DNA of 64,000 nucleotides from assembly GCF_003667545.1 (NCBI RefSeq), contig NZ_RCUV01000008.1:124001-188000 (forward strand), in the 5' to 3' direction. The stretch comes from Mycetocola manganoxydans (GTDB taxonomy: Bacteria; Actinomycetota; Actinomycetes; Actinomycetales; Microbacteriaceae). How positions within the stretch are numbered: position 1 is the stretch's first letter; every line of letters begins with the position of its first letter. Below are positions 24,921 through 35,794 of the stretch, piece after piece. The notes under the pieces were generated by a model that ran no database searches, was not told the DNA's origin, and was given only the letters and a program-made list of their open reading frames with translations. Made by a program: the position numbers and the translations under genes.

Positions 24921-25712
24921 TCAGACGGCGTCCGGCTGATCCGGCGCGGGTTTTGCGGATTCGGCCGCCTTCGGCGAACCCGTCGACGGTGTGGCTTTCG
25001 GAGCACGGGGCTTTTTGGCTGCCGGAGCTTTCGGCTCCTTCGCCGCTTTCGCGGGTGTGGCCGCCGGGGGTCGAACCGACTTCGCGGGAGCCTTCGGCTT
25101 CGGCTCGGCCGACGTCACGCCCGCCTCATCCGCGAGCTTCGCCGCTGCTGCTTTGGCTGCAGCGGACTTCGTCGGCGTCTTACGTGGTGCGCGGGCCTTG
25201 GCCGCTGCCACGGCGGTATCCGGAGTGACGACGGCGAGGCCCTCCGTGGGAGAAGGCGTTCCAGCGGCGGCCGGCGCGTCGGCGTCCGTCTTCGGTACCC
25301 TCTTGGGTTTCGGCATCACCTGCGGCGTTGTCTTGCGCACACGCGGCGACTTCTTGGTTGGTTTGACGTCGAGCTGGAGCTTCGACACGAGCTCCATGCC
25401 GTGCTTCGTCGTGATGATGAGACGCGAAAACTCCTCGTCGGCGACATCGATGACGACGGACGGCTTCGTGCCTTTGAGCACGAGGAAGTCTTTGCCGCCG
25501 TGGAACTTCCACTGGCCGACGGCGAGCGTCAGGGGGATGGCGGTGCCGGGGGCACGGATGCCGCGGACCCAGATCCACGGATCGTCGGTCAGCGTGGCCG
25601 ACCGAATCGACGAACGCGGCACGACGATGTTCTCCCGCCGCAGCGAGAGAGTCTTTTCAGCGGTCGACAAAATCACTTCGAGACGGTCGGGGTGCAGCAG
25701 GAGTCGAGCCAT
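24921..25712 (-). CDS. Hypothetical protein: compact N-terminal domain plus histone-H1-like tail
   Basis: 263 residues in two parts. Residues 1-115 form a compact beta-rich domain I do not recognise (resembling PH-like folds: DRLEVILSTAEKTLSLRRENI, KFHGGKDFLVLKG). From about 118 on it is almost entirely Lys, Ala and Pro, with runs such as AAAKAAAAKLAD, TPAKAAKEPKAPAAKKPRAP and PRKTPTKSAAA. These resemble the C-terminal tails of histone H1 and of actinobacterial HupB-type proteins, suggesting nucleic-acid binding by charge. No membrane segment. AGGGG precedes the ATG. It stands alone between acuI and hemL. Confidence 0.7.
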   Translation of the reverse strand: MARLLLHPDRLEVILSTAEKTLSLRRENIVVPRSSIRSATLTDDPWIWVRGIRAPGTAIPLTLAVGQWKFHGGKDFLVLKGTKPSVVIDVADEEFSRLIITTKHGMELVSKLQLDVKPTKKSPRVRKTTPQVMPKPKRVPKTDADAPAAAGTPSPTEGLAVVTPDTAVAAAKARAPRKTPTKSAAAKAAAAKLADEAGVTSAEPKPKAPAKSVRPPAATPAKAAKEPKAPAAKKPRAPKATPSTGSPKAAESAKPAPDQPDAV

Positions 25713-25814: not shown

Positions 25815-27146
25815 TCAGGCGGGCTTCGTCGCCTCCGCTGCGGCGCGAGCTGCGGCGGGAAGAGCGTCGACAATCCGCGCGATGACGTTCTCGTCGTGCG
25901 CGGCCGAGACGAACCACGCCTCGAAGACGCTCGGCGGCAAAGACACCCCGCCATCGAGCATGGCGTGGAAGAACGGGGCGTATCGCCACGCCTCCTGCGC
26001 CTGGGCTTCGGCGTAGTTACGCGGTCGGTCCTCGGCAAAGACGAAGCTGAACAGGTTGCCCGCGCGTTGCACGACGTGGGCGACGCCCTCGCGGCTCAAT
26101 GCCTCCGACACGGCGGAGGACAGCACGGCGGATGCCTCGTCGAGGCGCGCGTAGACGGCAGCGGTGGCGCGTTCGAGGGTGGCGATCCCGGCAGCGACGG
26201 CGACGGGGTTACCACTCAGCGTTCCGGCCTGGTAGACCGGGCCCGACGGGGCGAGGAAGTCCATGACGTCAGCCCGTCCGCCCAATGCCGCCAGCGGCAT
26301 ACCTCCACCGATGACCTTGCCGAACGTGAACAGGTCGGGGGTGTAGACCGGGCCGTCCGCGAGCGACAGGCCCCAGAAACCGGAAGGACTGACCCGGAAT
26401 CCGGTGAGCACCTCGTCGAGGATGACGAGCGCGCCGTTCTCGTGGGCAAGTTCGGTGAGAGCGGCGTTGAAGCCGCGGTTGGGCGCGAGAACTCCCATGT
26501 TCGCGGCGGCGGCCTCGGTGATGACCGCGGCGATCTGGTCACCGCGCTCGGCGAAGACGGCGCGCAGGGCGTCGAGGTCGTTGTATGGCAAGACGAGGGT
26601 CTGCGCGGCGATGGCCGCCGGCACACCGGCGGATGCCGGCATGGCGAGCGTGGCGAGGCCCGAGCCCGCTTCGGCGAGGAGTCCGTCGGAGTGGCCGTGG
26701 TAGTGCCCAGCGAACTTGACGAGCAGGTCACGGCCCGTGAAACCCCGAGCGAGACGGATCGCCGTCATGGTGGCTTCCGTGCCCGTGGAGACGAGCCGCA
26801 GCTTCTCGATCGGCGCGACGCCGACAGCGGAGACGCGTTCCTTGACCAGTTCGGCCAGTTCCGTTTCGGCAGGCGTCGATGCACCGAAGGACAGTCCGCG
26901 GGTGGCGGCGTCCTGAACGGCCCGCACGACGTCCGGGTGGGCGTGGCCGAGGATGGCGGGGCCCCAGGAACCGACGAGGTCCAGGTATTCGGTGCCATCG
27001 GCATCCGTCACTGTCGCTCCCGAGGCCTTCACGAGGAAGCGGGGAGTACCGCCGACGGAACCGAAGGCGCGAACCGGCGAGTTCACTCCGCCGGGGATGG
27101 AGAGCTTGGCACGGTCGAAGAGGTCGTCGTTGTTCACTTGAGCCAT
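25815..27146 (-). CDS. hemL: Glutamate-1-semialdehyde 2,1-aminomutase
   Basis: PLP enzyme converting glutamate-1-semialdehyde to 5-aminolevulinate. The 443-residue class III aminotransferase begins [21 protein letters not shown], diagnostic for HemL, and has the PLP Lys in [18 protein letters not shown] (about residue 270) with LDEVLTGFR upstream. Last gene of the minus-strand heme operon; its start overlaps the end of hemB by 13 bp, implying coupled translation. With hemA (44.3 kb) it completes the C5 route to ALA. Confidence 0.96.
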
Positions 27147-28108
27147 CCTGCCAGTTCGGTCGCCCAGTAGGTCAGGACGGTGTCGGCGCCTGCCCTCCGG
27201 ATGCTGATCACCGACTCCTCGATCGCACGGCGCCGATCGATCCAGCCGTTCGCCGCAGCAGCCTCGATCATCGCGTACTCACCGGAGACCTGGTATGCCC
27301 AGACTGGAATGTCGCTCATCGCGGCGACGTCGGCGAGAACGTCGAGATAGCTGCCCGCCGGCTTGACCATGACGATGTCCGCACCTTCGGACATGTCGAG
27401 GGTGGACTCGCGCATTCCCTCGCGCCGGTTGCCCGGGTCGAGCTGGTAGCTGCGTCGATCGCCAGACAGTTGGGAGTCGACGGCCTCGCGGAACGGTCCG
27501 TAGAACGCCGACGCGTACTTGGCCGAATAGGCGAGGATCGCGGTGTCGACGAATCCTTCCTCGTCGAGAGCGGAGCGCACGGCGTCGACCTGGCCGTCCA
27601 TCATGCCGCTGAGCCCCAATATGCTCGATCCCGCATCTGCCTGGACCAGCGCCATGTCGACGTACCGCTCCAGGGTGGCGTCGTTGTCGACCCGCCCTCG
27701 ATCGTCGAGCACCCCGCAGTGACCGTGATCGGTGAACTCGTCGAGGCAGAGGTCGGTCTGCACGACGAGCGCGTCGCCGACCTCCGCGGCGACCGCAGCC
27801 GTCGCGACGTTCAGGATGCCGCGGGGATCGGTCGCCTGCGAGCCGGTCGCGTCGCGGACGGCTGGAACCCCGAAGAGCATCACTCCGCCGACACCGGCCT
27901 CGGCAGCATCTGCTGCCGCGCGCTTGAGCGAGTCGAGCGTGTGTTGAGACACACCGGGCATCGAACCGATCGGCACCGCCTCGTCGACACCTTCGCGCAC
28001 GAAGAGCGGAAGGACGAGTTCGGCCGGGTGCAACCGCGTCTCAGAGACGAGGCGGCGCATGGCGGGAGTCTGACGGAGACGGCGGGGACGAATCACGGGT
28101 ACGTTCAC
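27134..28108 (-). CDS. hemB: Delta-aminolevulinic acid dehydratase (porphobilinogen synthase)
   Basis: Condenses two ALA molecules to porphobilinogen. The 324-residue protein has both Schiff-base lysines ([14 protein letters not shown] and VMVKPAG) and a Cys-rich zinc site ([14 protein letters not shown]), so it is the zinc-dependent type. GTG at 28108 is the start, with TAGGCT 6 nt upstream, suggesting an internal leaderless promoter in addition to readthrough from hemD (50 bp upstream). The 3' end overlaps hemL by 13 bp. Confidence 0.96.
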
Positions 28109-28158: not shown

Positions 28159-28962
28159 TCAGTTGTCGACCGTATCCGGCACCCACGGGGCCCTGCCGGC
28201 TTCGACGAGCGCCACCATGCTGTCGAGCAGCGCGGACACGGTCTGGTGCCGGGAGACGACGTGGACGGCGAGGCCGAAGCCCGCGGCATCCTTCGCGGTT
28301 CGGGGCCCGATCGCGGCGACGAGAGTCGACGGCGGAAGTTCTCCGAACTGTTCGACGACCTGCTGCGCGACACTGCCGCTCGTGACGAGGATGCCGTTGA
28401 TCCGCCCCGACCGGACGTCGGTGATGATCTTCTCTGCGACCGGCTCACCGATCGTCCTGTATGCGACGACGGATTCGACGTCGTGCCCGGCGGCGATCAG
28501 GCCCTGGGTGAGGAGGGGCTTGGCGATCTCGGAACGGAGGGTGAGGAAGCGCCTGGGCTTCGGCTCCAACTGGGTGAGCTCGGAGAGCATCCCTTTCGCC
28601 GAATTGTCCTTCGCTGGCACGAGGTCGACCCGGTAGCCGACGGCCTGGAGGGCCGCCGCGGTGGTTTCACCGACAGCGGCGACGCGCGTGCGCTCCGGGA
28701 TGCGAACCCCCTGCGAGTACATGACGTCGACCGTCGTCGCGCTGGTGACCGTGAGCCAGTCGAAGACGCCGTCCGCGAGTGCGGCGAGTGCCGTGGTCAG
28801 GCGCGCAGGGTCGTCTGTCGGTGCGAAGTTGATCATCGGTGCGACAACCGGGGTCGCACCCCTGGCGCGAAGGTCCGCAGCGACGCTGTCACCCCAGGGT
28901 CCACCGCGGGGCACGAGAATGCGCCAGCCTTTCAGCGGTTTCGACGGTGCGGGTGTGGACAT
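28159..28962 (-). CDS. hemD: Uroporphyrinogen-III synthase
   Basis: Closes hydroxymethylbilane with inversion of ring D. This family is poorly conserved; the 267-residue length, the two-domain alpha/beta pattern with WLTVTSATTV (about 66) and NGILVTSGSVAQQVVEQFG (about 195), and the position right after hemC support the call. It starts 11 bp downstream of hemC. A fused methyltransferase domain (cysG/cobA), common in other actinobacterial HemD proteins, is absent. Confidence 0.88.
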   Translation of the reverse strand: MSTPAPSKPLKGWRILVPRGGPWGDSVAADLRARGATPVVAPMINFAPTDDPARLTTALAALADGVFDWLTVTSATTVDVMYSQGVRIPERTRVAAVGETTAAALQAVGYRVDLVPAKDNSAKGMLSELTQLEPKPRRFLTLRSEIAKPLLTQGLIAAGHDVESVVAYRTIGEPVAEKIITDVRSGRINGILVTSGSVAQQVVEQFGELPPSTLVAAIGPRTAKDAAGFGLAVHVVSRHQTVSALLDSMVALVEAGRAPWVPDTVDN

Positions 28963-28973
28963 TGTGACTGCCT

Positions 28974-29933
28974 TCAGTTCTGCCTGATGGGCGCGAGCGT
29001 TGCTGCGCCCTGGGCGAGGAGCTCGTCGGCGAGGGTGCTGCCGACGGTCTCTGCCGTTGCTGTGTTCTCGTGTCGGGTGGCGGCCGCGAAATCGGCCGTT
29101 CGGGTGAGCCTGAGCGTACCGGATCCATCAGGAGCATAAACCGCACCGGTGAGACGAACGTGTTCCGGGGTGACGACGGCAGTCGCTCCGATGGGCGCCG
29201 CGCAGCCGGCCTCAAGCCGCGAGAGGATGGCTCGCTCGGCGGTCACGGCGGTGCGGGTGTCGGGATGTTCGATCTCGTCGAGCGCCCGGAGAATGTCGCC
29301 GAAGCGGGCGGGGTCGTCGAAGATGGCGGTTCGAACCTCGATAGCGAGCGCGCCCTGAGCCGGAGCGGTCGGCCAGTCGTCGAGCTCGAAGTAGTCGGTG
29401 ACGGCGTCGAGCCGGCCGAGGCGACCGAGCCCCGCCGCAGCGAGAACGACGGCATCGAGTTCGCCGGAGGTGACGAATCCGAGTCGGGTCTCGACATTGC
29501 CGCGGATGTCCAGGACGGTGAGGTCCGGGCGGACGGCGGCGAGCTGGGCGGCGCGACGGGGCGACCCCGTGCCCACTCGGGCACCATCGGGAAGCGTCGA
29601 GAGGGTGAGGCCATCGCGCGCGCACAGGACGTCGCGGGCGTCGGCGCGCTCGGGGACAGCGCCGACCCGCAGACCGGCATAGGCGGCGGTCGGCAGGTCC
29701 TTCATCGAGTGCACGACGAGGTCGCACTCGCCCCGAAGGAGGAATTCACGAAGCGCAGATGCAAACACGCCTGTTCCGCCGAGGCTCGACAACGACTCTC
29801 GCGATATATCACCGTGCGTCGTGACGGGAACGAGTTCCGTCTCGACCCCGGTGGCTGCCGTGATGGCGCGCGCGATGTCGCCGGTCTGGGCCATGGCGAG
29901 AGCACTTCCCCGGGTACCGATCGAGAGGGTCAT
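28974..29933 (-). CDS. hemC: Hydroxymethylbilane synthase (porphobilinogen deaminase)
   Basis: Polymerises four porphobilinogens. The 319-residue protein begins SIGTRGSALAMAQTGDIA, keeps the VVHSMKDLPT motif (about 74-83) and the dipyrromethane-cofactor Cys in LEAGCAAPIGA (about 240). The start overlaps the hemH stop by 4 bp (ATGA). Order hemH-hemC-hemD-hemB-hemL on one strand indicates a single polycistronic message. Confidence 0.95.
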   Translation of the reverse strand: MTLSIGTRGSALAMAQTGDIARAITAATGVETELVPVTTHGDISRESLSSLGGTGVFASALREFLLRGECDLVVHSMKDLPTAAYAGLRVGAVPERADARDVLCARDGLTLSTLPDGARVGTGSPRRAAQLAAVRPDLTVLDIRGNVETRLGFVTSGELDAVVLAAAGLGRLGRLDAVTDYFELDDWPTAPAQGALAIEVRTAIFDDPARFGDILRALDEIEHPDTRTAVTAERAILSRLEAGCAAPIGATAVVTPEHVRLTGAVYAPDGSGTLRLTRTADFAAATRHENTATAETVGSTLADELLAQGAATLAPIRQN

Positions 29934-31111
29934 GGTTGCAGCCCGGACAGCGCGGGTTTGAATCCCAGCCGGACGTTCTCACAGCAGCCGGGGCGGCACA
30001 CGTCGTACCAGGGCCCGAGGTCGGTCATCGCCGGACGTTCCTCGACCGGCACACCGTCGCGCCGCTCGAGCACGAGGTCGATGAGTCCGGTGACGTAGGC
30101 AGAGTGCGTTCCCGGCGTCGGCACACGAACCGAGTAGAGCTTGTTCTCCTCCGCCGATTCCGTCGCCTCGTTGTCGAGGTCCCAGAGCACTTCCATGTGG
30201 TCGCTCACGAATCCCAGAGGAACGATGACCACGGCACGGATGCCACGGGCAGGCAATTCCGCAATGGCGTCGTTGATGTCGGGCTCGAGCCACGGCATGC
30301 TCGGAGGGCCTGAGCGCGACTGGTAGACGAGCTGCCAGGCGAGTTCGCCCTCGAGGGCGAGTTCGCGCTTCACCGATTCGATGACGACCTCGGCGACGGC
30401 ATGGTGCTGGGCGGCGTACGCGCCACCCTCGCCGAAGCCACGCTCAGCGGGGCCGGACTTGGCGGCATCCGTCGACGGAATGGAGTGCGTCGAGAACAGG
30501 ATCTCGACCTCGGAGAAGAGATCGATTCCGGGGTTGTCGGCGAGGACCTTCGTGAGGCCGTCGCGCACACCGTCGATGAACGGTGTCACGAAGCCCGGGT
30601 GGTCGAAGAACTGACGCACCTTGTCGATCGAGATGTGCCCGAACAGGCTCGTCTCGTCGAGGGCGATCGCGAAGTCCTCACGGTACTGGCGGCAGCTCGA
30701 GTACGACGAGTACGCGCTCGTCGCGATGGCGATGAGCTTGGTGTAACCACGCTCATTGGCCTCCACGAGCGCGTCGCGCAGGTACGGGTCCCAGTTGCGG
30801 TTGCCCCACAGGACGGGAAGGTCGATGCCACGCGCGGCGAGTTCGGCCTCCATTGCAGCCTTGAGCTGACGGTTCTGGTCGTTGATCGGGCTCACCCCGC
30901 CGAAGTGGCGGTAGTGGTGGGCGACCTCTTCGAGGCGCTCCTCAGGGATGCCTCGCCCACGCGTGACGTTTCGCAGGAAGGGAATGACATCGTCCTGCCC
31001 CTCGGGTCCGCCGAAGCCGGCGAGAAGGATCGCGTCGTACGCGACCGGTTCTGTGATGTGCGGTTCGCCGGATGCCGCTGCATCCGTCGCGCCGAGAACT
31101 GCGTCACTCAC
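29930..31111 (-). CDS. hemH: Coproporphyrin III ferrochelatase
   Basis: Inserts iron into coproporphyrin III in the coproporphyrin-dependent pathway (also named cpfC). The 393-residue protein contains YDAILLAGFGGPEGQDDVIPFL (start of the ferrochelatase fold, given here in two overlapping parts), LFSTHSIPSTDA (catalytic His) and ELARGI-type WLEPDINDA motifs. The start is GTG at 31111 behind GGAGG with 7 nt spacing; the long frame further upstream is not coding because it runs through hemQ. GTGA overlaps the hemQ stop. C-terminal Cys residues (CRPGCCEN) may bind an iron-sulfur cluster. Confidence 0.93.
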   Translation of the reverse strand: MSDAVLGATDAAASGEPHITEPVAYDAILLAGFGGPEGQDDVIPFLRNVTRGRGIPEERLEEVAHHYRHFGGVSPINDQNRQLKAAMEAELAARGIDLPVLWGNRNWDPYLRDALVEANERGYTKLIAIATSAYSSYSSCRQYREDFAIALDETSLFGHISIDKVRQFFDHPGFVTPFIDGVRDGLTKVLADNPGIDLFSEVEILFSTHSIPSTDAAKSGPAERGFGEGGAYAAQHHAVAEVVIESVKRELALEGELAWQLVYQSRSGPPSMPWLEPDINDAIAELPARGIRAVVIVPLGFVSDHMEVLWDLDNEATESAEENKLYSVRVPTPGTHSAYVTGLIDLVLERRDGVPVEERPAMTDLGPWYDVCRPGCCENVRLGFKPALSGLQP

Positions 31112-31830
31112 TGCAGGACCTCCGGGATGTCGGTTGTTGGAATACGTCGACCCGTATAGAACGGGACTTCTTCGCGGACGTGCCTGCGGGCATCCGTCGC
31201 CCGGAGATCGCGCATGAGGTCGACGAGCTCGAGGAGGTCGTCGGATTCGATCGGCAGGATCCACTCGTAGTCGCCGAGCGCGAACGCCGAGACGGTGTTG
31301 GCGATCGCACCGCGGAACGCGGCACCCTTGCGGCCGTGGTCGGCGAGCATCTTGCTGCGCTCGTCGTCGGGGAGCAGGTACCACTCGTAGCTGCGCACGA
31401 ACGGGTAGACGGTGAGCCACCCCCGGGGTTCGACGCCACGGAGGAAGCCGGGAACGTGGCGTTTGTTGAACTCCGCCTCACGGTGGACCCCCATCGCGTT
31501 CCAGGTGGGGAGCATCGGCCGGAGGATGCTCGTGCGGCGCAGAACCCGGAGGGCGCGCTGCAGGCTGTCGGCGGTGTCGCCGTGGAGCCAGATCATCAGG
31601 TCGGCGTCGGACCGCAGGCCGGAGACGTCGTAGAAGCCCCTGACGGTGACACCGTCGGCGGTGATGCGGGAGACGGCGCCGTCGAGTTCGAAGACGGCGT
31701 GGTCGCTCAGTGGTGCCCGGTGTTCGGGGTCTCGGCGCAGGACTGCCCAGAGGGCGAATCCAATCGGGTTCTCTTCAGGTTCGGGATCATGCAGGGTCGA
31801 TGGTGCCTCGGCAGAGGCCGGGTGAGTCAT
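31108..31830 (-). CDS. hemQ: Coproheme decarboxylase HemQ
   Basis: Last step of the coproporphyrin pathway: oxidative decarboxylation of coproheme to heme b (also named chdC). The 240-residue chlorite-dismutase-like protein has the HemQ region YPFVRSYEWYLLPDDER (about 140-156, with the catalytic Tyr) and the proximal His in MLADHGRKG (about 164). Its presence shows that heme is made via coproheme, as in other actinobacteria. Two starts are possible: ATG at 31830, or ATG at 31839 which has AAAGGG upstream. It overlaps hemH by 4 bp. Confidence 0.94.
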   Translation of the reverse strand: MTHPASAEAPSTLHDPEPEENPIGFALWAVLRRDPEHRAPLSDHAVFELDGAVSRITADGVTVRGFYDVSGLRSDADLMIWLHGDTADSLQRALRVLRRTSILRPMLPTWNAMGVHREAEFNKRHVPGFLRGVEPRGWLTVYPFVRSYEWYLLPDDERSKMLADHGRKGAAFRGAIANTVSAFALGDYEWILPIESDDLLELVDLMRDLRATDARRHVREEVPFYTGRRIPTTDIPEVLQ

Positions 31831-31931
31831 ACCTAACATCATCACCCTTTCTTGTGCGCGACCCAAATTGCTTTCCCCTGGATGCGAAGCATTCACAGGA
31901 ACCCGCAGGAACCTCGTCCACACCGAAGAGC

Positions 31932-32021: not shown

Positions 32022-32261
32022 CTAGCGGACGACGATCGCCCGGGTGATTGCCCAGACCGCGGTGCCGGCGACGACCGCGACGGCCGCTACTCCGCTGAAG
32101 AATGCCGCGGGGTTCTGACGCTGCAGGCGCGCGGCCTCGACCTTGCCCTGCGAGACGGCGCGGGACACCTTGCGCGGGACGTTGAGCTTGTCCTCGATGG
32201 CGTTGAGGGTGGAGACGAGCTCCAACCGTGCGTGCTCGGTTGACGAATTAGTACCGGTCAT
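32022..32261 (-). CDS. DUF3618 family small membrane protein
   Basis: 79 residues: a hydrophilic N-terminal half with RLELVSTLNAIEDKLNVPRK (typical DUF3618 start, amphipathic helix) and one membrane helix at about 52-74. The function is unknown; DUF3618 genes usually sit beside holin-like and YtxH-like genes, as here. The gene overlaps the 3' end of the holin-like gene by 14 bp, so translation is probably coupled. Confidence 0.8.
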   Translation of the reverse strand: MTGTNSSTEHARLELVSTLNAIEDKLNVPRKVSRAVSQGKVEAARLQRQNPAAFFSGVAAVAVVAGTAVWAITRAIVVR

Positions 32262-32661
32262 ACTCGCCCTCCCCCTTCACAGCGCGGAGATCCTTCTTGA
32301 CGCTCTCGATCGGGTTCGGGTCAGCACCCATCTTCTTGAAGAAGCTGAGGCCGATGAGCGCCAGGACGACGGCGATCAGCAGGAATGCGACGAAGACAAT
32401 GAGCGCAGCCAGCCATGCGGGCAGGATCAGCGCGAGCGCCAGGATCCCGACGGCGACGAGCGTGCCGATTGCAAAGAACAGGAAGATCAGGGCGAGCACC
32501 ACGAAGATGGCGCCCTTGCCCGCGTAGCTCCCGAGGTGAGCAGCCTTGGTCTTGAGCTGGTCGATCTCGGCCTTGATCAGGTTGGTCACCAGGCCGGGGA
32601 GGTTCCCGATCAGGGTGGCCAGCGATTCCCGGTTCTTGTCGTTCACGGTGCGATCCGTCAT
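32248..32661 (-). CDS. Phage-holin-family (holin superfamily III) membrane protein
   Basis: 137 residues with an amphipathic N-terminal helix (SLATLIGNLPGLVTNLIKAE) and two long membrane helices (about 50-75 and 82-108) joined by a short turn. This matches the actinobacterial putative holin-X/superfamily III proteins, which are chromosomal envelope proteins and not evidence of a prophage. GGGAG precedes the ATG by 7 nt. It is the middle gene of a three-gene cassette. Confidence 0.82.
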   Translation of the reverse strand: MTDRTVNDKNRESLATLIGNLPGLVTNLIKAEIDQLKTKAAHLGSYAGKGAIFVVLALIFLFFAIGTLVAVGILALALILPAWLAALIVFVAFLLIAVVLALIGLSFFKKMGADPNPIESVKKDLRAVKGEGEYDRY

Positions 32662-32679: not shown

Positions 32680-33036
32680 TTAGAGGGTGGCGCTGGAGGA
32701 CGAACCGGGAGCTGAGCTCTCCGGCTTGACCTTCTCGACGACGTCGTCGACGGCATCCTTGGTCTTGGCGATCGTCGCGTCGAGCTTCTGCCCGGGTGTT
32801 CCGTTGCCTCCGATGCCGGATGACACCTTCTTCACGCCTGCGAAGAGCGCCTTGGGCAGCTCGCTCGCGCGGGTCTTGGCGAAGTCTTCGACGAGCTCGA
32901 CCTTCTGCTGAACGGCGTCGGTCTCCCAGACCTTGAGCCAGTTCTTCTTGATCTGCTCGTAGCGCGCACGTCCCGCACGCGATCCGAGTACGTATCCGGT
33001 GGCCAGACCGGCTACAAAAATCAGCTTGTCCCTCAT
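32680..33036 (-). CDS. YtxH-like membrane-anchored small protein
   Basis: 118 residues. The N-terminal LIFVAGLATGYVLGSRAGRARYEQI (membrane helix followed by the GSRAGR turn) is typical of YtxH-domain general-stress proteins; the rest is a Lys/Glu-rich amphipathic helix with a Ser-rich end. GGAG lies 5 nt before the ATG. It follows hemY by 44 bp on the same strand and leads the YtxH-holin-DUF3618 cassette placed between hemY and hemQ. Confidence 0.8.
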   Translation of the reverse strand: MRDKLIFVAGLATGYVLGSRAGRARYEQIKKNWLKVWETDAVQQKVELVEDFAKTRASELPKALFAGVKKVSSGIGGNGTPGQKLDATIAKTKDAVDDVVEKVKPESSAPGSSSSATL

Positions 33037-33080: not shown

Positions 33081-34682
33081 CTACGAGGCCGTGTTGTCCG
33101 GGCTGGCTTTGTCTCCACCGGGTCTGGTATGTCCGCCGTCCGTTGTTCCCGACGGCCGGTACGAAGCCGCCACGAGATGCCGCACACGACGGGATGCCGC
33201 GAGGGCGTCCGGGACGACGGATGCCAGGCCGGTGCCTGCAAGCCAGGCGCCGGTGACATCGAGGTCACCGATCCTGAGCGCGGCGGCGCGCAGCGCTTCG
33301 GCGCGTTCCCGCTGGCCGATCGCCGCACCGGGAAGCGTTCCATTCCAGACGGTCCGCGCGAAGCCGACCACAGCCGAGTCGTCGAGGGGAACGCCGAGGA
33401 GCGCCGCGGCATCGCGAACGGCGAGGGCCCGAACAGCGGTGTCGTCGAGTCCGGTCGTGGGGTTGGCAGCGCCGTGGCGCCCATAGGAAAGGCGGACGAC
33501 GTGCCGGTGCGGATGGCCGGTGCTGGCTTCGTCGTGCAGCCACTGCCACTTCGCTGTGGAGTGCGTCAGCGCCTTCGCGGTCACGGTCGACCCGGATGAT
33601 TCAGCAACGAGCACGCCGCTTCCGCGCGGCGCAGCGTCGAGTGCGGGCGCGTCGAGGACGAGGGTGACCAGTTCGATGGCCGGCGCGTCGACCGGGCTCT
33701 CGGCAGCGATCTCCGCTGAGAACGGTGCGAGCAACCGGAGCGCTTCGGCCTCGGGGGCCGCAACGATCACGTAATCCGCCTCGAGCACGGTTCCGTTCTC
33801 GAGCGCGACCTCCCAGCGCGTCGTGATCTCCTCAACGCCTGTCGCGTCAGCGACTGCCCCTGACGGGTCCGTCGTCGCACCGTCACCAGGGGCGACGGCG
33901 TCGGTGTCTGCCGCTTCCTCCGGGTCAGCGATGCGCGATACCGCGCTGACACCCGCACCGAGCAGCAGAGTAGCGCCGCGATCAGTGAGGTCGGCGGTCA
34001 GAGCGGTCACGAGTGTGGACATCCCGCCGCGGAGCCCCTCGACGGCCGATCCGGCCGGAGCGTTGCTGCGGAGGATGGCGACCGCTCCTGAGAGTGAACC
34101 TGCTGCAGTCAGTGCACGGTTGAGCCCGGGAGCGGCACGGGTCACATCGAGGTCGGACGGGTCGGCGGAGTAGACGCCGCGGGTGACGGGCGCGACGAGC
34201 GACTCGAGTACTGCGGCGCCCATCCGGCGACGGACGAGGTCGCCGAGGTTGCGTTCTGTTCCGATGGTGAGGACGGGCCGGATCCGGTCGAGATAGGCGC
34301 GAAGAGCCCCGCGCCAGCCGATCACCCTGCGCACGTCGTCTGCGAGCGGGCTCGAAGGGATGCCGAGCAGCCCCGCCTTCGGCAGGGGAACGGAACGACC
34401 GTCTGCGAGGCGCACCCAGGCGCCGGCGGGCACCGGTCGGACGACGGAGTCCGCAAGCCCGAGGCCGTCGACGAGCTTCCGCACCGTCCCACCACGGGTG
34501 GCGTAACTTTCGGCGCCCGTGTCGACCCGGATGCCGGCGACGGTCTGGGTGGCGACGGCGCCTCCTGGCGCGTCAGTGCGCTCGACGACGGTGACGTGCA
34601 TTCCAGCCGTCGCGCAGTCCCGCGCCGCGACGAGTCCGGCGATCCCGCCACCGATCACCACAACGGAACGGGGCGTGGTCAT
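33081..34682 (-). CDS. hemY: Coproporphyrinogen III / protoporphyrinogen oxidase (HemY type)
   Basis: Oxygen-dependent FAD oxidase; in HemQ-containing actinobacteria it oxidises coproporphyrinogen III to coproporphyrin III (also cgoX). The 533-residue protein starts with the FAD motif VIGGGIAGLVAARDCA (about 9-24) and ends with the FAD contact region VTGAWLAGTGLASVVPDA (about 470-487). An acidic, low-complexity insertion (about residues 245-290, rich in Asp/Ala) interrupts the conserved fold and is longer than usual. The ATG overlaps the hemE stop by 4 bp. Confidence 0.92.
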   Translation of the reverse strand: MTTPRSVVVIGGGIAGLVAARDCATAGMHVTVVERTDAPGGAVATQTVAGIRVDTGAESYATRGGTVRKLVDGLGLADSVVRPVPAGAWVRLADGRSVPLPKAGLLGIPSSPLADDVRRVIGWRGALRAYLDRIRPVLTIGTERNLGDLVRRRMGAAVLESLVAPVTRGVYSADPSDLDVTRAAPGLNRALTAAGSLSGAVAILRSNAPAGSAVEGLRGGMSTLVTALTADLTDRGATLLLGAGVSAVSRIADPEEAADTDAVAPGDGATTDPSGAVADATGVEEITTRWEVALENGTVLEADYVIVAAPEAEALRLLAPFSAEIAAESPVDAPAIELVTLVLDAPALDAAPRGSGVLVAESSGSTVTAKALTHSTAKWQWLHDEASTGHPHRHVVRLSYGRHGAANPTTGLDDTAVRALAVRDAAALLGVPLDDSAVVGFARTVWNGTLPGAAIGQRERAEALRAAALRIGDLDVTGAWLAGTGLASVVPDALAASRRVRHLVAASYRPSGTTDGGHTRPGGDKASPDNTAS

Positions 34683-35794
34683 TGCGCGTGAACGAACTCG
34701 ACGAGACGGGTGAGCACGGCGGGATCGGTTTCGGGTGGAACGCCGTGACCGAGGTTGACGACGTGGCTGGGAGCGCTTGCGCCGCGCTCGAGCACGTCAC
34801 GGACGTGCGCCTCGAGGACCGGCCAGGGTGCGGCAAGGAGGGCGGGATCGATGTTGCCCTGAACAGGTACAACTCCGCCCAGCCGACGGGACGCTTCGTC
34901 AAGCGGTACGCGGTAGTCCACCCCGACGACATCAGCACCGATGTCGTGCATCGCCTTGAGCAGCTCACCGGTTCCGACACCGAAGTGCACGATCGGCACG
35001 GTCCGGGTGACGGCGTGCGCACCGGGCTCGGCAGGCGGGATGCTGTAACTGAGGTCGCGCACGTGCTCGAGGGCGCGAGCGGATGCCGGTGCCACGTAAC
35101 GCACGTAATCATCGAGCGAGAGCGCTCCAGCCCACGAATCGAACAACTGTGCGGCGGATGCCCCGGCGAGGACCTGTGCGCGGAGGAACCGGCCGGTGAC
35201 CTCGGCCACCCACTCCATCAGGCGCGCCCACGCCTCCGGCTCGGCGTGCATGAGGGTGCGCGCGTGGATGTGATCCTTCGACGGACCGCCTTCGACGAGA
35301 TACGCCGCGAGGGTGAAAGGAGCTCCGGCGAAACCGATGAGCGGAGTGCGTCCCAGCTCGGCGACGGTGAGCCGCACCGCCTCGATGACCGGGGCGAGGG
35401 TCTCGTCGAGCACGGCAGGGTCGAGCGCGATGAGCTCGTCGACATCCGCCGCCGTGCGGACCGCCTTGCCAAGCACAGGACCCTTACCGGGGACGATCTC
35501 GACCTCGACACCGACCTGCTTGAGCGGAACGACGATGTCACTGAAGAAGATGCCCGCATCGACGCCGTGCCTGCGCACCGGCTGCAGGGTGATTTCGCTC
35601 GCGAGCTCCGGAGTGAGACACGCATCCAGCATGGCGTTTCCTACCCGCAGTTTGCGGTACTCGGGCAGCGAGCGCCCCGCCTGCCGCATGAACCACACCG
35701 GCGAGACGTCGGGCCGGGTACCCCCGTACGCGGTGATCAACCGGGAGTCGTGGGTGAGTCCTGCCTCGAGCGGGTGGTTCTGAGAAAGCTGCAC
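34679..35794 (-). CDS. hemE: Uroporphyrinogen decarboxylase
   Basis: Decarboxylates uroporphyrinogen III to coproporphyrinogen III. The 371-residue protein has the signature PVWFMRQAGRSLPEYR (about 31-46) and the second conserved segment GFAGAPFTLAAYLVEGG. The start is GTG at 35794. It is the first gene of the minus-strand heme set, followed by hemY with a 4-bp overlap. Two direct repeats TGTCAAAGTCC lie just upstream. Confidence 0.95.
   Translation of the reverse strand: MQLSQNHPLEAGLTHDSRLITAYGGTRPDVSPVWFMRQAGRSLPEYRKLRVGNAMLDACLTPELASEITLQPVRRHGVDAGIFFSDIVVPLKQVGVEVEIVPGKGPVLGKAVRTAADVDELIALDPAVLDETLAPVIEAVRLTVAELGRTPLIGFAGAPFTLAAYLVEGGPSKDHIHARTLMHAEPEAWARLMEWVAEVTGRFLRAQVLAGASAAQLFDSWAGALSLDDYVRYVAPASARALEHVRDLSYSIPPAEPGAHAVTRTVPIVHFGVGTGELLKAMHDIGADVVGVDYRVPLDEASRRLGGVVPVQGNIDPALLAAPWPVLEAHVRDVLERGASAPSHVVNLGHGVPPETDPAVLTRLVEFVHAQ

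Follow-up and report, generated by a model that had tools for sequence, protein, structure and literature searches.

The last gene of a heme biosynthesis cluster in Mycetocola manganoxydans encodes a protein of 263 residues, in which a conserved domain, predicted to be PH-like, is followed by a tail rich in Lys, Ala and Pro. We tentatively favour, as possible though short of probable, the reading that this protein is an accessory factor of heme biosynthesis whose single PH-like domain has an adaptor or docking role. The domain, which would represent an uncatalogued family, may act as an adaptor or oligomeric docking protein that aids the enzymes of the pathway through protein contacts, as suggested by the position of the gene together with the presumed roles of bacterial PH domains. 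The C-terminal tail is an extension, presumably disordered, that differs between lineages. Where it is polycationic, as in this genus and neighbouring ones, it probably anchors the protein to a polyanion (acidic membrane lipid or nucleic acid), and the core function would not depend on it. The analysis started from a window of 64,000 nucleotides (the whole stretch of DNA that was analysed, positions 124,001 to 188,000 of contig NZ_RCUV01000008.1), to which all coordinates below refer unless a contig is named.

The reading frame, its domain and its tail

The reading frame of 263 aa is confirmed as real, and its parts are the following:

24921..25712, minus strand: whole ORF, 263 aa plus stop, ATG start; PH-like domain (predicted), then Lys/Ala/Pro tail
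25371..25712, minus strand: conserved domain, residues 1-114, predicted PH-like (alignments, AlphaFold, fold searches)
25545..25586, minus strand: family signature DDPWIWVRGIRAPG, residues 43-56 (alignments)
25296..25370, minus strand: basic proximal tail, residues 115-139, conserved within the genus
24924..25370, minus strand: Lys/Ala/Pro-rich tail, residues 115-263, presumably disordered, lineage-variable

The border between domain and tail lies at about residue 114, where conservation among relatives drops sharply. The domain has the GC content by codon position of a coding sequence (0.62/0.43/0.85). Although these values are flat in the tail (0.68/0.66/0.73), where the antisense frame is open too, the tail was accepted as coding because five other members of the genus, used for comparison, preserve both the reading frame and the first 25 residues of the tail. 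Within its own genome, the ORF gives a single match, which is itself.

The original prediction had described more than half of the protein as a Lys/Ala/Pro tail of the histone H1 type, and both points hold: the tail takes up 149 of the 263 residues and consists of 26% A, 18% P and 15% K, with a net charge of +18. Over the last 100 residues of the ORF, K+A+P amount to 67% and K to 16%. For comparison, 313 ORFs of 120 aa or longer were picked from 409 kb of this genome, the window among them, by a rule on GC by codon position that could miss genes with flat GC. The ORF is the sole one of them with K of at least 12% and K+A+P of at least 50% in that stretch, and the runner-up has 34% K+A+P. As in histone H1 and mycobacterial HupB, the C-terminus of the ORF is Lys/Ala/Pro-rich, net positive and presumably disordered; unlike theirs, it is joined to no known DNA-binding domain. 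The one match to HU (PF00216) in the genome is another gene, which encodes a short HU without a Lys/Ala/Pro tail (locus L276, C23:225414-225680).

Family status and predicted fold

In an alignment of 23 sequences, that of the window included, 40 positions are invariant, D43-D44-P45-W46-I47-W48-V49-R50-G51, R53 and G56 among them. In an alignment that extends to distant relatives (47 rows), G51, G56 and G66 never vary, and R53, P60 and F76 hardly do. The orthologue of Mycetocola miduiensis is 97% identical over the domain. In some orthologues (several of L164-L185), the last strands of the domain are separated by a variable insertion, often acidic, which ranges from a few to several tens of residues and precedes an R-[IV]-I-[IV]-S-T motif.

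A compact, beta-rich N-terminal domain of no recognised family had also been proposed from the window, and this description agrees with the predicted models and with the searches: no match above cut-off was obtained with Pfam and NCBIfam for the whole protein or with PHROGs for the domain, and PDB sequence searches with the domain and with profile A1 gave nothing significant. The Pfam and NCBIfam scans detected no known DNA- or RNA-binding domain, HU included, and no relative was confirmed among the viral contigs searched. The domain is a family without a named model in the searched libraries, and its type of fold is already known. A literature search, with most subscription papers outside its reach, found no paper on the domain, none joining pleckstrin homology and heme biosynthesis operon or Microbacteriaceae and PH domain-containing protein, and nothing relevant for hemL and Microbacteriaceae.

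In the fold of the PH-like superfamily, a C-terminal helix closes a beta-sandwich of seven strands. Two AlphaFold models, built from different queries and resting on 23 and 27 close sequences, have pLDDT of 68.2 and 67.2 and pTM of 0.63 and 0.65. Both place strands at residues 3-6, 10-14, 29-32, 36-42, 85-90 and 97-101, a helix at 17-22 and another from residue 105. They differ at residues 43-80, where confidence is low, and a seventh strand is predicted at 76-79 in one and at 62-65 in the other. Among the 50 VIA-align rows listed per model, nearly all are PH, PTB, FERM-F3 or GRAM structures by class label. The best Z values are 7.0 (70 residues, rmsd 2.6) and 7.2 (71 residues, rmsd 2.8), a level that may reflect merely a common arrangement. 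No solved bacterial PH structure was seen among the VIA-align rows shown, and Foldseek gave no match at E 0.001 for either model, with unrelated folds lower in its lists. A Z of about 7 is no proof, but since both runs gave such uniform lists of matches, a PH-like fold is the reading of the domain that we judge best, and a probable one. Chains of Rtt106, a histone chaperone with PH domains, occur among the structural matches, which does not make the protein a histone chaperone.

The PH superfamily serves mostly for protein or lipid contacts. A fold search had been suggested as a check on the idea of a nucleoid- or RNA-associated protein; its best matches fall in this superfamily, and the tail proved poorly conserved, which tells in part against that idea. 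Bacterial PH domains form rings via an open strand edge and have been proposed to mediate protein-protein contacts, according to Xu et al. (2010, PMC2817789). Like these domains (PHb; PF08000 and related DUFs), the ORF is a small bacterial protein with predicted strands, a C-terminal helix and matches in the PH superfamily; unlike them, its domain has a signature of its own, DDPWIWxRGxRAPG, and a position in a heme cluster. None of the Pfam models bPH_1 to bPH_6 matches the window protein, and the match of one distant relative to bPH_5 (E 0.22) falls short of the cut-off. Members of bPH_6 occur in 26 of 60 genomes of the family, most of the matches covering part of the model only.

Two other families were rejected as parents. 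One is DUF4429 (PF14472), which has no Pfam match and an hhalign probability of 35% over 40 columns; this weak profile match covers the start of the domain and would pass no threshold for membership. DUF4429 itself is present in one genome as pairs within a single frame. The other is DUF7882 (PF25355), with an hhalign probability of 0.4% and no Pfam match. According to PMC12227055, DUF7882 proteins are putative transducers of CryoRhodopsins and resemble the ORF in several ways: they are small and PH-reminiscent, come from this same family of bacteria, have a C-terminus predicted to be disordered, and their genes lie tightly next to that of a partner. The genome of the window has five DUF7882 matches (C16, C25, C29; L297-L301), two of them about 2 kb apart, and the ORF is not among them.

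Linkage to heme biosynthesis genes

The ORF lies behind a series of hem genes, all on the same strand:

25815..27146, minus strand: hemL, glutamate-1-semialdehyde aminomutase (Pfam Aminotran_3); name from context; 102 bp upstream of the ORF under study
27134..28108, minus strand: hemB (Pfam ALAD)
28159..28962, minus strand: hemD (Pfam HEM4)
28974..29933, minus strand: hemC (Pfam Porphobil_deam)
29930..31420, minus strand: hemH/cpfC (Pfam Ferrochelatase, domain residues 129-453); the true start is probably inside this reading frame
31108..31923, minus strand: hemQ/chdC (Pfam Chlor_dismutase); name from context
33081..34682, minus strand: hemY/cgoX (Pfam Amino_oxidase); specific name from context
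34679..35794, minus strand: hemE (Pfam URO-D)

The order on this strand is hemE, hemY/cgoX, two small ORFs, hemQ/chdC, hemH/cpfC, hemC, hemD, hemB, hemL and, at the end, the ORF under study. The two small ORFs (32248-32661 and 32680-33036, minus strand), which by eye we take to encode a holin/DUF1469-type membrane protein and a YtxH-like protein, could be further uncharacterised partners in the heme cluster. A promoter scan around the ORF detected no promoter-like site, and a terminator scan one terminator-like site, inside the hemL reading frame and at chance level. By its genes, the cluster is one of coproporphyrin-dependent heme biosynthesis (PMC10991733). According to the same paper, HemX of Bacillus and Staphylococcus is a non-enzymatic accessory of the hem operon that adjusts the pathway at a post-transcriptional level. 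Unlike the ORF, it is integral to the membrane, and the likeness is one of analogy, with no relation claimed.

The relatives found place the window near Mycetocola in the bacterial family Microbacteriaceae. The survey of this family found 123 places in 122 of 299 genomes, 120 of which were fetched (the own gene, G094 and G177 were left out). The 104 with a domain score of at least 100 are referred to here as close orthologues, and the other 16, as distant relatives, are counted apart. In 83 of the 104 (window not counted), hemL, hemB, hemD or hemC lies no more than about 4 kb upstream, on the same strand: 50 orthologues come directly after hemL and 13 directly after hemD, 18 have hemL as their nearest hem gene with a match that ends 0.4-4 kb away, and two have hemD within 4 kb. 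Of 31 genera, 26 have one or more hem-linked orthologues, and the orthologues adjacent to hemD belong to six genera from several parts of the tree. The median gap is 107 nt behind hemL and 68 nt behind hemD; it is 4 nt in six loci behind hemL, all of one genus, and 2-4 nt in four loci behind hemD, all of one other genus, gaps of 2-4 nt being the spacing of translational coupling.

In the other 21 close orthologues, no hem gene was found within about 4 kb, one of these loci (L148) being cut by a contig end; in some of the 21, for instance in G055, HemB lies a few kb further upstream on the same strand. A second of the 21, locus L091 (G245, a MAG; same place as L001), is among the nearest relatives by domain, with 98% domain identity. 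Its available upstream sequence of 1.5 kb matches no hem gene and contains, in place of hemL, a different frame that by eye resembles a sugar kinase; this change is either a real rearrangement or an assembly error. HemB occurs in 105 of 105 genomes with a close orthologue, the own included and read by eye from a table, versus 149 of 194 others (Fisher p 7e-10, uncorrected for relatedness). As these 149 genomes have HemB and no close orthologue, the gene is not required for heme synthesis.

Relatives are also found outside the family. Profile A2 (47 rows) has members in 35 of 396 genomes of the phylum and 54 of 297 genomes of the order, of which 29 and 32, respectively, are outside the family. 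A search with the domain located relatives on plasmids of Streptomyces and, with weaker matches, of lactobacilli; on one Streptomyces plasmid the gene lies between a TetR regulator and a hydrolase, and on one lactobacillus plasmid near an antitoxin and an IS3 transposase. Among 40 loci outside the family (20 + 20 of the phylum and order matches, several with flanks cut by contig ends), none lies beside a recognisable heme-pathway gene, one weak HemL-like aminotransferase match in the first set apart. The domain was recovered in all 40, followed by a short sequence that is not a Lys/Ala/Pro tail.

Inherited gene order is the strongest counter-case to a heme accessory role. Since gene order is inherited among related genomes, linkage by itself is no proof of function. 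Like its scattered relatives in Streptomyces, lactobacilli and other actinobacteria, the ORF could be a general PH-like protein, with an unrelated function, that owes its place beside hem genes merely to this inheritance, a reading that we lean against and nonetheless consider quite conceivable. It agrees with the varied contexts of the plasmid-borne relatives, the lack of recognisable heme neighbours outside the family, the 21 orthologues without a nearby hem gene, the changed frame upstream of L091 and the restriction of very short gaps to one genus each. By contrast, it is less easily reconciled with a spacing of 2-4 nt that one genus shows after hemL and another after hemD, or with genomes such as G160, G047, G003 and G019, in which the gene is kept beside hemD and hemB is elsewhere in the genome. 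We place the link of the gene to heme biosynthesis only just below an even chance. If it holds, the ORF would offer a concrete, single-copy, non-enzyme gene with which to probe how the bacterial family controls or organises heme synthesis. A more specific version, which we regard as unlikely, would make it a dedicated accessory factor of actinobacterial coproporphyrin-dependent heme synthesis, its PH-like domain being a hub that assembles or positions soluble enzymes and its H1-like tail, in some genera, a tether of heme synthesis to nucleoid or membrane.

Variation of the tail and its possible roles

The tail is a lineage-specific add-on and not a trait of the family, and it is conserved less well than the position of the gene. 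Among the 104 close orthologues, it is shorter than 20 residues in 58, basic in 24 (net +5 or more over 20 residues or longer), neutral in 16 and acidic in six (net -5 or less), and its length ranges from 0 to 530 residues. For instance, it is absent at four loci of Plantibacter, where the proteins end at residue 115, acidic at three loci of Agromyces and near-neutral at five of six loci of Cryobacterium. On the domain tree, which has few columns and many unresolved forks and is therefore weakly resolved, a long basic tail (at least 40 residues) requires at least four changes. One group of 27 rows (support 82) contains 22 of the 25 basic rows, its other five rows being one tail-less genus, and the remaining three basic rows form part of a second group. 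Such a series of natural tails on one domain (almost none, acidic, neutral, basic) offers a test of what a polycationic tail contributes.

The tail of the ORF aligns beyond chance with those of the five other members of the genus; its alignments with four other genera hardly exceed those of shuffled sequence, if at all (z -0.1 to 2.9). Positive charge is retained by basic tails of 59-530 residues where their sequences are unalignable between genera, so that the composition of the tail outlasts its sequence for a while.

These patterns bear on two further explanations. The original prediction was that of a nucleoid- or RNA-associated protein, whose tail would bind DNA or RNA as those of H1 and HupB do, with the PH-like domain bringing partners. 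Its H1-like tail stands, as does the basic character of that tail in 22 of the 27 rows of the main long-tail group, and the persistence of charge beyond alignable sequence and the tail-less HU of the genome would fit such a role. However, the tail is variable (very short, neutral or acidic in 80 of the 104 orthologues), the scans detected no nucleic-acid-binding domain and the genomic context points to heme biosynthesis, which leaves the proposal weakly supported and, in our view, improbable. Very short, neutral or acidic tails prevail among the orthologues, so the core function of the family cannot be that the tail binds nucleic acid. The other explanation concerns the tail only and fits either reading of the domain: it could be a functionless, near-neutral, GC-rich extension of low complexity, produced by repeat expansion or loss of a stop. 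This we hold to be somewhat unlikely; the range of lengths, the flat GC by codon position and the repeated changes of the basic label on a weakly resolved tree are what it would lead one to expect, whereas the persistence of charge and composition over several genera and the conservation of the proximal 25 residues within the genus are not. In our view, the tail is very probably accessory to the core function of the protein.

In one genus, four orthologues (L128, L154, L156, L158) have tails of 396-530 residues with a net charge of +40 to +52; hemD directly precedes three of them and is within about 1.2 kb of the fourth.
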